A stretch of 64,000 nucleotides of DNA, taken from positions 30,367,493-30,431,492 of the forward strand of contig NC_133223.1 in assembly GCF_040436345.1 (NCBI RefSeq). The letters run 5' to 3'. Position 1 is the first letter of the stretch, and each line of letters starts with the position of its first letter. The notes beneath the pieces are model-generated. The model worked only from the letters and a program-made list of their open reading frames with translations. It was not told the DNA's origin and searched no databases. The DNA comes from Pagrus major. Its lineage: Eukaryota > Chordata > Actinopteri > Spariformes > Sparidae. Positions 1,367 to 7,300 of this stretch are shown piece by piece. The position numbers and the translations under genes were made by a program.

Positions 1367-4300
1367 TCAGCAGCGGCTACTGGGGTCGGCAAAGTGGTTC
1401 TGAGAAGGCGACATCGGGTAGTTAGAAAAGTCGAGTAATTCAGAGAAGATTTCCTGAAACACTTGATGAGTCTCCAACTAGAAGAAAGAAGAAAAAAAGA
1501 TGTTGATAACATTTCTATGTAGACAAATCACATATTTGACATAATACATCTACAGAGCTTGTAGAAAGTTTCTCTTTTCCTTAAAAACATTATGATGATT
1601 GTGAATTTATAATGTTAAAATGTTTGTCGGGTCCAGAATTATTGTTTTGTTTATCTGTGTGTAAGACAGTTGGTTCCAGTTTCTAACGAGGTTTGTCAGC
1701 CGACAGTGCGACGCCGTCGGAAACTCGTGGTATCTGAATACTACACCCAGAATACTATACTGCCCGAACGTTAGCTAGCTATAAAGTGAATTAAAGAGGG
1801 GGTGAGGCGCAGGTGGAGGAGGAGAAACACAGGTGAGGGGAATGAATGGAAAAACACTAAAACAGGAGCTGATAGGCTGGAAAACACATAAGAGGGACGA
1901 GATAATGAAGGCGTGGAGGGAAAACCAGGCTGGTGAGGAGCAGAAGAAAACAGGAGGGAAGACAGACCACTGACATGACAACGATGTGTTATTTTAACAT
2001 TATGTACATAAATAATTGTATTTAATTGACTATAAGTTTTCGTTTAACTTCTACAAAATCCACCCCATTTTATAACTCACAGTCCAGTCTCTGTCTATTT
2101 CTATTTCCATGTCCATGTCCGTCAAGGGATTGTCCCTCGGCGGAGACGCAGGTGGTGTTGGACAGCTGTAGGAAAAACAGACAATAAATGGTCAAATATA
2201 TGTGAATCGAGGCGTTTGTGCTGCGATGTGTTTTTATTTGAATTATTATCGTCTTACTTACTCTGACACAGGAATCTGCGTCCTGTTGACGTACCCGTCT
2301 ACGACCTTTTTAGGTGCCGACATTGCTGCATGAACAGAAGTGATCAGGAGTCGTTACAGGGCAAATGCTCACAAAGTAAGTTACCAGAGAACATAACGCT
2401 GACTTAAGCTGGAGAACCTCAGCATCGTTTGAAAAAGACCAATCACCCTCTTGAAACTAATTTCCTGTTCTTTTAATGTTACTTGAAAGTCAAGCAGGAG
2501 ACGATAGATACCAGATTTCTTGTAGTAGCATCCAAAGGCGACGTCTTTGGGGATGTCTGGGTAGAGATAGAGCAGAGGGTTCCTGGTCATGTTCTTCTGG
2601 GCTCTCAGGCTGTAGTGGTAAATGATGTCCGGCACACACATGTTCACCAGCTCCAGCTTGGTGTACGGCTGCACTGAATGCACGTGGGGCTCTGCAAGAC
2701 GACCACAAACAAATGCAAGAAGACAAATGCTTGAATGTGTGGTGGTGAAATATGTTATGAGACGTTGTGTTTTCTCATTTCAGTGGTTTTAAATCGAAGC
2801 TTTCGAGCTCCAGATGTGCAGAAACGTACCGCCGTTGGAGTGCTCCACCCAGCTGAAGGTGATGGCTCCGTCTTTGTTGCTCTCGCTGAAGCGCAGCAGG
2901 AAGGTGCCGGTGGGTTTTTCCTGCAGCAGCGCCTTCGTGCTCTCTCTGCTCACGAAGCCCATGATGGAACTGAAACAAACACGACATGTGGTCTCATCTG
3001 TTGCTGACGATTGTCTCACGATAATTATTGACATTGAAAACAGACAAACCCTTTCAAGATCACACCACATCAGCAAGGTACAGTCAACAAACAAACAAAC
3101 AAACAAGCTGTGCTCAGCCTGGTTGTATCTTACCCATCCCGCCAAAGATCCAGGAGGTGTTTTTTGATCAGATCCAGGATTCCATCGATCCAGGTCCAGG
3201 CATTCTCGTTCTGTCCACACAGGAAACGTCAACACGTAGAGATGGTGGTTAGTTATGACGAGCACAAACAGAGACGCATGTAAACACGCTCAAGTCCGAC
3301 AGGTTGCGTAAACATCAGTCTAACGAGAATCTTCCTTAAACACTCACCTTGGAGAACTTGTTCCAGTGAACGAGATCATCAGGATCATCTGTGAAGAAAC
3401 CAAGTCACATAAAGATGTCGACTGAATCCTTCTTCCATGTTTTATTACAATTTTCAGTAGAATCAGATTCAATAACAAGAGGTGAGCTCCCACTACAAAG
3501 TGAGACTATCTGTGGAAGAAGCGATCAAAGACTCACCCACAATCTTCTCTCTTATCATTGAGAGCTGGTGTTCGTCGAGTCCCCGTTGGCCAACGGTCAA
3601 AAACTGCCAGCTGAGAGTCTGCGACATCTGCTGCCAGGTGAGTGGAGGAGGGTCCAGAAACATCGACAGGTTCTACAGGACAAATACGGACTTTTATTAC
3701 AGTTTGTTCTGACAGATGACAATAAGAAGAAAGGTAATGATAAACCCAAAGTCAAAGTACGACTGTTGTGATGTGTGTTTTCATGTAGTGAACAGATCTT
3801 TACCCTCGGTTCACTGGTGGACAGCATGTTGCACCACATGACAGTGGCCCAGGCACTGGAGCCCTGAACGGTGCTGGAGATCACAACCACAGGCAGGGAG
3901 CTGGCCTGGACCGACACAGGAGGAGGAAACCGTTCAATAAATCACCTGACTGAACACCTGCAGCTCTAACAGTCTCTAGTGACATCTGAAGGGTGCTCAC
4001 CTCGATGTCACACTGCAGTCCGGCGTGTTGGAGCGTCGTCACGAACTTAATGATGTGGAGTTCTTCAGTGACTCCCAGACGATTGTGGTGAAGAAGGATC
4101 TGAGCGCCAGCAGACCAACAACAGTAATCACATTACACTCTGAACCACAACAGCCATCAGAGGGTCTAATAAAATCCACATTTCTATTCAATATTTCAGT
4201 ATGAAAAATATAATCTATTATAATTTCACAAAACCACAACCTGCAAACCAAACCTACACATGTCAGTTAATTGAGTTTGGATGTTTCCTCTCACCTCAGA

Positions 4301-7300
4301 CGATCCTTTGCTTTTTCCCTTCTCCTGTTTTGCTGCTTCCTTGATTGACTGAAAAAAAACATGTCAACGTTTGTCATGTTTGTTTAATGACAGATGGACA
4401 CAGATTTAACTCTTTAACAACGTTCAATAGCTTGTGGAGTTTTATACCATGTGACAAAATTCTGCCACCAGGCCTCCTCGGGGCGTGTCCACGTCCATCA
4501 CCTTCGAGTCACCGCTGCTCAAGTCAAAGCGACGAAACCTGCAACAACATCAGACGGGAGTTCGTCTCTGTCGTCTATGAGAATTAATGATGACATGACA
4601 AAGACGACAGAGTTGTTTTTTTACCCTTTAACTGTCTTGGTTTCTTCAACATCCCTTATTTTGAGGAGAGAAGGGAAACACATTAACAATGAAAACAAAC
4701 AAAACGTCCAGAAGGAAGATTTCTGTTTACGTAGAAATAATAATGTACTCAGATCAAAGTCTGACTTACTTGTCAAATACAGGTTTGACTGAGAGCAGGT
4801 ACTTGAACTGTGGGAGGTTTGCTAAGAATCTGAGAAGAGAAGGGAAACGTAACGACGAAACTGTCAAAGGCGGCCAGCTGGAGTCGTTTCCTGCATATTG
4901 GAGGTTTAATTTAACAAAACAGACACTTTATAACAATTTCTGTGTAAAAGCGCCGCACACACCTCGCGTAAATAACATAAATAGCAGACTGGCCTATTTT
5001 ATGTTTGTGGAGCGGACCTCTGTGGCACATATGCACCACTTAGCGCTTTATTTGACTAAACTGCACATTCATTAAACACAAGCCTGTTTTTTTTTACCGA
5101 AAATCTCTCCACAGTCTACAACTTCACAACGCAATTTACAATATCTGTTCAGTTTTGACTAGTTCTTCGTGAATCTCACCTCGCTGTCACTGTGAATCTC
5201 ACCCCGGTCTTCAGAATCAGAGGTCGCTGTGGTGAACTCGACATGACAGGTTGTTTCTCAACCACCAGAGCGCTGCAAAGCAACGACACGGCAAAACATG
5301 TCAACAATATGAGAGTGTGTGTGTGTCGGTCTGTGTGTATGTGTTACATGACGCCATGTCTCACTTTGAAAGTAGTTTTGTGAACAAGGACAGCGCGAAG
5401 TTCTCAATTTCTGTCAGCGGGGAGGCGTCGGTGCTGTTGTACTTCTGGTTCTGCTCCTGCAGCTTCTGCAGCTGTTCGCGTACTTCCTGCAGAACTTCTG
5501 CCACAGCCGTGAACCTGAACGTAAAACACACAAGTTAGGACAGAAAGACGTGTGTTTTGTCTTTAACTTGAAAACATTAAAAGTCGAGGTCGTGCTGATA
5601 AAATCTCACCACTTCTCCAGATATTCCAGACGGGTGTCGACTGGACTTCCAATGCAGGACATCTGCTGCCTGCACTTCCACTCAGGCAGCTCCACATCTG
5701 TGAGAGTCACCACGATCTCCTCTGTCGCTTTTAAAATGTTCACCATCTGCTGCAGCAACTTCTGCTCGACAAAAACACAGCAAACTTTAAGTATGTCGGG
5801 AGGAATTAGAGCCGCAACTCATTATTGTTTTCAGTGTCGGTTTATCTGTTGATTATTTCTCCATTAATCGATTTGCTGAAATACTTTAATGTGTCACTAC
5901 GACACTACCTGCTTTGTTTGTGTGATCAAGTTGGCCTTCTTGAGACATTCCTGCTCCACAACGGCACGAGACTGGGCCAATCCAACGTGCTGCTCCACTG
6001 GTGAAGACAAATATGAGACACAAGTGAGACGTGAACTCAAACCGAACACATCACCTGAGTCTTTACGTCTCTGAACGCACCTTGGGTTTGCCAGGTCTGC
6101 TGTATGAAGTAAAGCTTTTCATTCTGGACCTCCAGTGACTTTGTTCCCTTCTTCATTTCCTGCAGTAGAGAAATTAAGAAAAAGTTAAAGTTTGTTTTTC
6201 TAAGGATTAGGATTAATATGAAAGTGACAGTCCAGTCATGTGAGTTTACCAAAGTCTGTCTTTTCAGTTCGTTGACTTTGTTGTCCAGCTGCCTCCATTT
6301 GTGTTCCACAGCTGAGCTGCTGCAACCCTGACAACAACAACAACAACAACAATAAAAACAAAGATGTTTCCTTCACTCTTTTGTTATTTCTGGCATTCAG
6401 TGGTGATTCTGACAAAACAGACTGTCAGCGTGTGAAGTTCAGAGTTCAGACTGGTAATGGAGGAACGCCCGACAGCATCTTTTATGTTGTTTGTTTGCTG
6501 TTGTGTGTTTCTTTTGTTGTTCATTGCTAAACATGAATAATTTGAACTGTGGAGTCTTTATTTTGGTGAATATTATCTGAACTTGTTTAGTCCTGACCTA
6601 CAAAACCCACCAGGTTAAAGTCAAGCGGTTGTGGTAAAATACAGCTACAGTCTTTTTAAAGAAGAATTTAAAAAAGGAAAGTTGTCAGAGCATAAAACCA
6701 ACAATGATCTGTTGATCTTTACAAATGCAGACGCGATGGTCTAACAACGGAAAAGCCGTCAGTGACGCATCCTGACACCCATTATAGTAAAAAGACAGAT
6801 TTAACAGATCTTGATTAGTTTCCTCTTACTTGTGCTTCTGAGGCTGAAGCCAGGATTTTCTTTTCCTCCTTTAGACATTCAGAGAGGATTATGGCCAAGT
6901 TCAGTGGATGATCTTGAAAGTGTTTCTAAGAAGAGAAGAAGAAGAAAAACAATCAGATTTACACAAAAGCAAGATAAATCTAAATAGCATGTAAAATGTT
7001 TAATGTTCACGCGTCTGTCCTACCAGCAGGTAATCTTTCATCCCCTGAAAATCAGGTCCCTGCAAAATGTTGTTCTCCTGCACAGAACGGTCCCACTGTT
7101 CGTCCAGAAACATCAGCAGAGCGCGGAAACAAGTGTTCGCTTCATTTTCATCCACAGCTGCCGAATCCCTGAAAGAAAGTGTTCATTCATTCAGGGGATG
7201 TGAGTGTCTACACGTGCACTTTGTATACAATAACTAAGCATCAACACACTTTCAGTTACTACTTATTTTACAAATTAAGATTTTTTTTCATATATTTTTT

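Follow-up and report, generated by a model that had tools for sequence, protein, structure and literature searches.

Teleost fish have two STAT1 paralogues. The closest described relatives of the gene considered here are Stat1b of zebrafish, salmonids, and carp, human STAT1, and human STAT2. Fish stat1b adjoins stat4, with wdr75 and slc40a1 nearby (PMC10556531, Rao et al. 2023; PMC3296744, Liongue et al. 2012, likewise gives stat4 as the neighbor of stat1b), and lumpfish stat1a, like that of other fish, lies near mstn and nab1a (PMC10556531). In salmonid cells that lack stat1a1 and stat1a2, neither type I nor type II interferon up-regulates mx, irf1, dhx58, and ifna3 any longer (PMC6612602). 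Since this response is abolished although stat1b paralogues exist, stat1b is no substitute for stat1a in salmonid cells. Fish Stat1b has been presented as a brake whose effects run counter to those of Stat1a (PMC8980424). Human STAT2 binds DNA only together with STAT1 (PMC10298571). Here, we describe stat1b of the sparid Pagrus major, located in a stretch of 64,000 nucleotides (contig NC_133223.1, positions 30,367,493 to 30,431,492, RefSeq assembly GCF_040436345.1; hereafter, the window), and we report as observed how the gene is built, its orthology as judged from synteny, its residues, and how fast it has evolved. The gene is intact and differs from human STAT1 at Asn460 and His328. With confidence that stands evenly balanced, we propose that it encodes a signaling STAT1 with weakened autonomous binding of gamma-activated sites (GAS), which would act beside stat1a and with partners.

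An intact stat1b beside stat4

Among the genes listed for the window, the order is stat1b, stat4, wdr75, and slc40a1. Because this neighborhood matches the published stat1b locus, we identify the gene as teleost stat1b, the paralogue from genome duplication that kept its place next to stat4. A preliminary description of this DNA had recognized one of the two teleost STAT1 paralogues, and synteny now specifies which. The locus near stat4, wdr75, and slc40a1, the best match to STAT1, and the intact architecture are features shared with Stat1b of zebrafish, salmonids, and carp. The best match in the Protein Data Bank (PDB) is human STAT1, with 570 bits over residues 1 to 695; STAT3 and STAT2 scored 418 and 393 bits. 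Over the core of the protein, from the DNA-binding domain (DBD) to SH2, identity is 53.8% to human STAT1 (191/355), 45.6% to STAT2, and 45.4% to STAT3. The comparison with human STAT4, made for the DBD only, gave 43.6% identity versus 50.6% for human STAT1.

The coding region consists of 23 exons and 22 introns, all GT-AG, and its 2280 nucleotides translate to 759 amino acids in a single frame whose only stop is at the terminus. No frameshift, internal stop, or lost splice site was found across the 23 exons, which agrees with the preliminary statement that the exons are in frame and that the gene is not a pseudogene. Five Pfam STAT domains score above cutoff in the protein, which has the N-terminal domain (NTD), coiled coil, DBD, linker, SH2 domain, and activation tyrosine (Tyr685) of the family. 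Alignment with human STAT1 shows that the signaling parts are kept, namely, the phosphotyrosine-binding SH2 Arg593 (STAT1 Arg602), Tyr685, and the serine of the PMSP tail. The YPMSPS of this tail resembles the Ser727 motif of STAT1. Constraint has been enough to keep the full frame, the splice sites, the SH2 pocket, the activation tyrosine, and the PMSP tail.

A misnamed stat2 was rejected on the grounds of synteny, of whole-protein score (393 versus 570 bits), and of the KYLK motif, which, as given in PMC3296744, is absent from the protein. A second local copy of stat1 was also rejected: the exact SH2 motif pattern has two matches in the window, one in stat1b and one in stat4, in a search that would overlook degraded copies and any copy lying past the 1.37 kb of the window downstream of stat1b. 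Scans of prokaryote and viral contig collections returned no STAT relative, as expected for such collections.

A noncoding first exon seems likely at 8589-8838, where reading by eye showed an AG directly ahead of the initiation codon and, near 8838, a GTAAGAAT donor. An interferon-responsive promoter was rejected: in the approximately 3 kb upstream of this presumed exon, no site resembling an interferon-stimulated response element was found, and GAS matches numbered 1, versus 0.86 expected from mononucleotide shuffles.

Residues altered in the DNA-binding domain and beyond

Asn at 460 and His at 328 were used here as the mark of a GAS-binding STAT, and stat1b has neither: the position of STAT1 Asn460 is Ser459, and that of His328 is Ser319. 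Replacement of the base-contacting Asn460 had been claimed in the preliminary description and is confirmed by both exon 15 and the alignment. Adjacent stat4 reads PCMPTHP and ISNVSQLP and so retains both motifs, as also stated there. The first of these segments is indeed altered in stat1b, but it is not near-invariant across STATs as had been supposed, reading PCMPMHPDRP in human STAT3 and PCMPQTPHRP in STAT2 and being missing from STAT5B and STAT6. At position 460, all of human STAT1 through STAT4 have Asn; in STAT5B and STAT6, the residue is His. A salmon Stat1a primer encodes, in our translation, a start codon and then PCMPTHP (PMC4215117).

At least seven nucleotide changes separate CMPTH from VMSSS, and at least eight separate NVSQLP from STVQGS; N460S alone takes one. 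Chance is an unlikely source of two motifs that require so many changes with the frame open throughout. Sequencing error, named in the preliminary description as grounds for refutation, is likewise a poor account of them, and it was rejected, as was a pseudogene, on these changes and the intact 23-exon model. The protein has K336, R378, T427, S459, K567, the SH2 Arg, and the Tyr of human STAT1 and differs from it by T327S, H328S, N460S, W37A, and a 9-residue loop insert. The insert lengthens the DNA-contact loop before VTEELH in the DBD alignment. Its residues sit at the exon 13/14 junction (4001-4348) and come partly from an extended exon 14 start, downstream of which no alternative in-frame acceptor was seen when the DNA was read by eye.

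Trp37 lies in the STAT tetramer interface, and W37A is a mutation used to break STAT tetramers. This residue is common to human STAT1, STAT3, STAT4 chain 1bgf, and the stat4 of the window and is Ala37 in stat1b. Position 77 of STAT1, at which an F77A mutant has served to uncouple type II and type I interferon signaling, is Ile in stat1b and varies among STATs. The loss of Trp37, which is 1 of 17 lost conserved NTD positions, may be part of general drift. At the other end of the protein, YPMSPS is kept, whereas published fish Stat1b is described as lacking a transactivation domain (TAD) (PMC8980424). The loop insert, the loss of Trp37, and the kept tail motif are additions to the preliminary description.

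Among titles and the opening lines of abstracts, from coverage that lies mostly outside subscription journals, no report of these residues in fish Stat1b was found. The motif letters matched the text of one review containing human STAT sequences and of three further papers, of which, by title, two concern PML and one concerns SUMO.

Divergence is not concentrated at DNA contacts

Contact positions were taken from PMC8143464 (STAT1 structure 1bf5) and PMC4454770 (STAT3; a docking-input list), and a position of the DBD, linker, or SH2 counted as conserved when human STAT1, human STAT3, and the stat4 of the window have the same residue. Conserved contact positions have changed in stat1b at 3/11 sites (H328S, Q340R, and N460S), versus 27/80 for the other conserved DBD positions (Fisher p = 1.0), and adding human STAT4 to the conserved set gave 3/10 versus 19/63. 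Contact and noncontact positions of the DBD are thus altered at the same rate; the earlier emphasis on change specific to DNA contacts is not supported, and a targeted loss of contacts is rejected statistically.

Human STAT1 is matched by stat1b at 10 of the 19 listed contact positions, compared with 16 for the stat4 of the window, 14 for human STAT3, 8 for STAT2, 7 for STAT5B, and 6 for STAT6. The nine differences are T327S, H328S, Q340R, K413A, R418K, T419G, I425G, N460S, and V461T, of which those in loop 413-421 depend on an uncertain alignment (STAT1 K413 pairs with Ala in one alignment and with Lys in another). Eight DBD contact positions are common to human STAT1, STAT2, STAT3, and the stat4 of the window, and only N460 among them is altered in stat1b. 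It is conceivable that Ser at 460, the Ser-rich edge, and the longer loop retarget the protein from the ordinary TTCNNNGAA motif to another half-site or spacing. Position 460 sets the spacer preference of STAT1 versus STAT6 (PMC5359187), the loop that is 9 residues longer carries the STAT1 contacts K413, T419, and E421 (PMC8143464), and K336, R378, T427, and S459 are retained. However, contact positions are not preferentially changed, and Ser is neither the Asn of STAT1 to STAT4 nor the His of STAT5 and STAT6, so we consider such an altered specificity, a prediction from sequence, distinctly unlikely.

The NTD and coiled coil, with 41.2% and 37.5% identity, resemble human STAT1 less than the DBD does (52.6%); the linker reaches 53.2% and SH2 58.1%. 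Conserved positions have been lost at 17/46 sites in the NTD (a count not strictly comparable with the others, as its conserved set was STAT1, STAT3, and STAT4 chain 1bgf), 30/91 in the DBD, 13/39 in the linker, and 8/51 in SH2, with a difference between DBD and SH2 (Fisher p = 0.03). In Tajima relative-rate tests of the core, residues unique to stat1b and those unique to human STAT1 stood at 80:18 with STAT3 as the outgroup and 80:22 with the stat4 of the window. By domain, with the STAT3 outgroup, the ratios were 48:6 in the DBD, 16:4 in the linker, and 16:8 in SH2; the NTD gave 28:5 with STAT3 and 29:7 with STAT4. The core of stat4 in the window is nearer to human STAT1 (238/349, 68.2%) than is that of stat1b (53.8%). 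Faster evolution of stat1b is therefore supported, less strongly with the two outgroups discussed below, and its divergence spans most of the protein rather than being aimed at DNA contacts.

A spread over NTD, coiled coil, DBD, and linker is also what simple relaxed constraint would give, that is, a redundant paralogue heading to loss with no special role on DNA, and stat1b is reported missing in lumpfish (PMC10556531), so at least one fish can do without it. Nevertheless, all 23 exons, the splice sites, and the frame are intact, SH2 keeps 43/51 conserved positions, and Arg593, Tyr685, and PMSP are kept, which makes this account unlikely in our view.

Human STAT2 is like stat1b in being without the Thr-His of MPTHP (MPQT in STAT2), and both have GVTEELHI and FGCYY, but STAT2 retains Asn460, lies at a different locus, and has a whole-protein score of only 393 bits. 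Fifteen core residues of stat1b (2512-4538), such as I425G, S432I, E632Q, and K679C, match STAT2 and not STAT1, STAT3, or the stat4 of the window. Convergence on STAT2 was rejected, since the mirror-image control with stat4 gave 13 such residues and there is no clear excess.

Predicted DNA binding and interferon signaling

The consequences for DNA binding and for the pathway set out here are deduced from residues. Given the alterations at the base-contacting Asn460, at the Thr327/His328 edge, in the length of contact loop 413-421, and at Trp37, the stat1b homodimer would be expected to bind GAS sites weakly and less cooperatively. The protein would remain able to undergo phosphorylation, to associate with Stat1a or Stat2, and to contact DNA; it would serve as a partner or modulator in interferon signaling, with stat1a carrying the GAS response. 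In human STAT1, N460H lowers N3 (GAS-type) binding and raises N4 binding (PMC5359187), and position 460 therefore matters for DNA reading. STAT3 H332Y and N466del, reported in hyper-IgE patients, fall at the positions of STAT1 H328 and N460 (PMC8604890).

Several results count against this account. In electrophoretic mobility shift assays, zebrafish Stat1a and Stat1b produced in bacteria both bound GAS probes, and either protein, when overexpressed, drove a reporter with the GAS-bearing bmp8a promoter (PMC7943762). The stat1b clade as a whole is therefore neither GAS-blind nor simply a brake. The argument for a brake was in turn built on a Stat1b said to lack a TAD, and the P. major protein keeps the PMSP tail. 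Grass carp IFNa brought no increase in phosphorylation of a zebrafish/human hybrid Stat1b (PMC8980424), which for this ligand tells against retained phosphorylation; the result lowered our confidence from slightly better than even to even. Contact sites are not enriched among the changes, leaving the effect on DNA binding to rest on few residues. The excess of core substitutions is weaker with STAT2 (49:28) and STAT5B (34:17) as outgroups (both p = 0.017). Finally, stat1b stood beside human STAT2 in a seven-sequence core tree (support of 89) and again in an eight-sequence DBD tree (support of 51); because both branches are long in each tree, we take this grouping as likely attraction between long branches.

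The zebrafish binding data (PMC7943762) are in line with a different reading, in which these residues are the ordinary state of stat1b across the fish group and GAS binding is normal. Stickleback stat1b groups with other stat1b, albeit distantly (PMC10556531). The variants that patients carry at these two positions of STAT3 point to a cost of such changes (PMC8604890), and we regard this reading as somewhat doubtful. The confidences given to these alternatives overlap, and a group-wide occurrence of the residues is compatible with the weakened GAS binding that we favor. A stricter proposal is that stat1b cannot act alone on GAS and is confined to the part of a tethered partner, such as the STAT1 subunit of ISGF3 in the type I interferon response, with stat1a keeping the GAS/interferon-gamma programme. 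It is drawn from the absence of Asn460, His328, and Trp37, given the role of Trp37 in tetramers, together with the longer contact loop, and seems to us quite improbable.

Features of the window

The elements of stat1b and the neighboring genes are listed in Table 1. A minisatellite array with a unit of ~30 bases in ~25 copies lies at 61564-62287.

Table 1. Positions in the window of stat1b features and of neighboring genes
Feature	Positions	Strand	Support
stat1b coding region, 23 exons, 759 aa	1367..8587	-	GT-AG introns, single frame, PDB match, Pfam
Codon for Ala37, STAT Trp37 position	8477..8479	-	NTD alignments
Exon 9, DBD start	5180..5272	-	Gene model
VMSSS replacing CMPTH (STAT1 324-328)	5233..5247	-	Gene model, alignment
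Exon 13, first part of lengthened DNA-contact loop	4295..4348	-	Gene model, DBD alignment
Exon 14, opens with ILLHHNRLG, rest of loop insert	4001..4099	-	Gene model, DBD alignment
Exon 15, segment with Ser459	3804..3905	-	Gene model
AGC codon of Ser459, STAT1 Asn460 position	3873..3875	-	Gene model, alignment
Exon 19, SH2 core with phosphotyrosine-binding Arg593 (STAT1 Arg602)	2830..2969	-	Motif pattern, alignment
Exon 21, activation tyrosine Tyr685 (STAT1 Tyr701)	2262..2325	-	Alignment
Exon 23, C-terminal tail with YPMSPS, Ser746	1367..1477	-	Alignment
stat4, partial model, keeps both motifs and Trp37 equivalent	12242..28767	-	Adjoins stat1b
wdr75, exon-sized open reading frame, synteny marker	32163..32414	+	Pfam Beta-prop_WDR75_1st, E 1.5e-22
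slc40a1 / ferroportin exons, synteny marker	54445..60547	-	Pfam FPN1 in 3/3 open reading frames given

Implications for STAT1 function in fish

Two positions hit in human STAT3 disease carry natural substitutions in P. major stat1b. If the stat1b genes of related fish mostly resemble this one, measurements of "stat1" in farmed fish must distinguish the two paralogues. In mammals, a single STAT1 serves both GAS-driven and ISGF3-driven programmes. If stat1b has lost residues needed for autonomous and cooperative GAS binding yet kept its signaling parts, each of these jobs could be studied in a gene of its own, and, should stat1b be limited to tethered partnership, duplication of the genome would have divided what mammalian STAT1 does between two genes.

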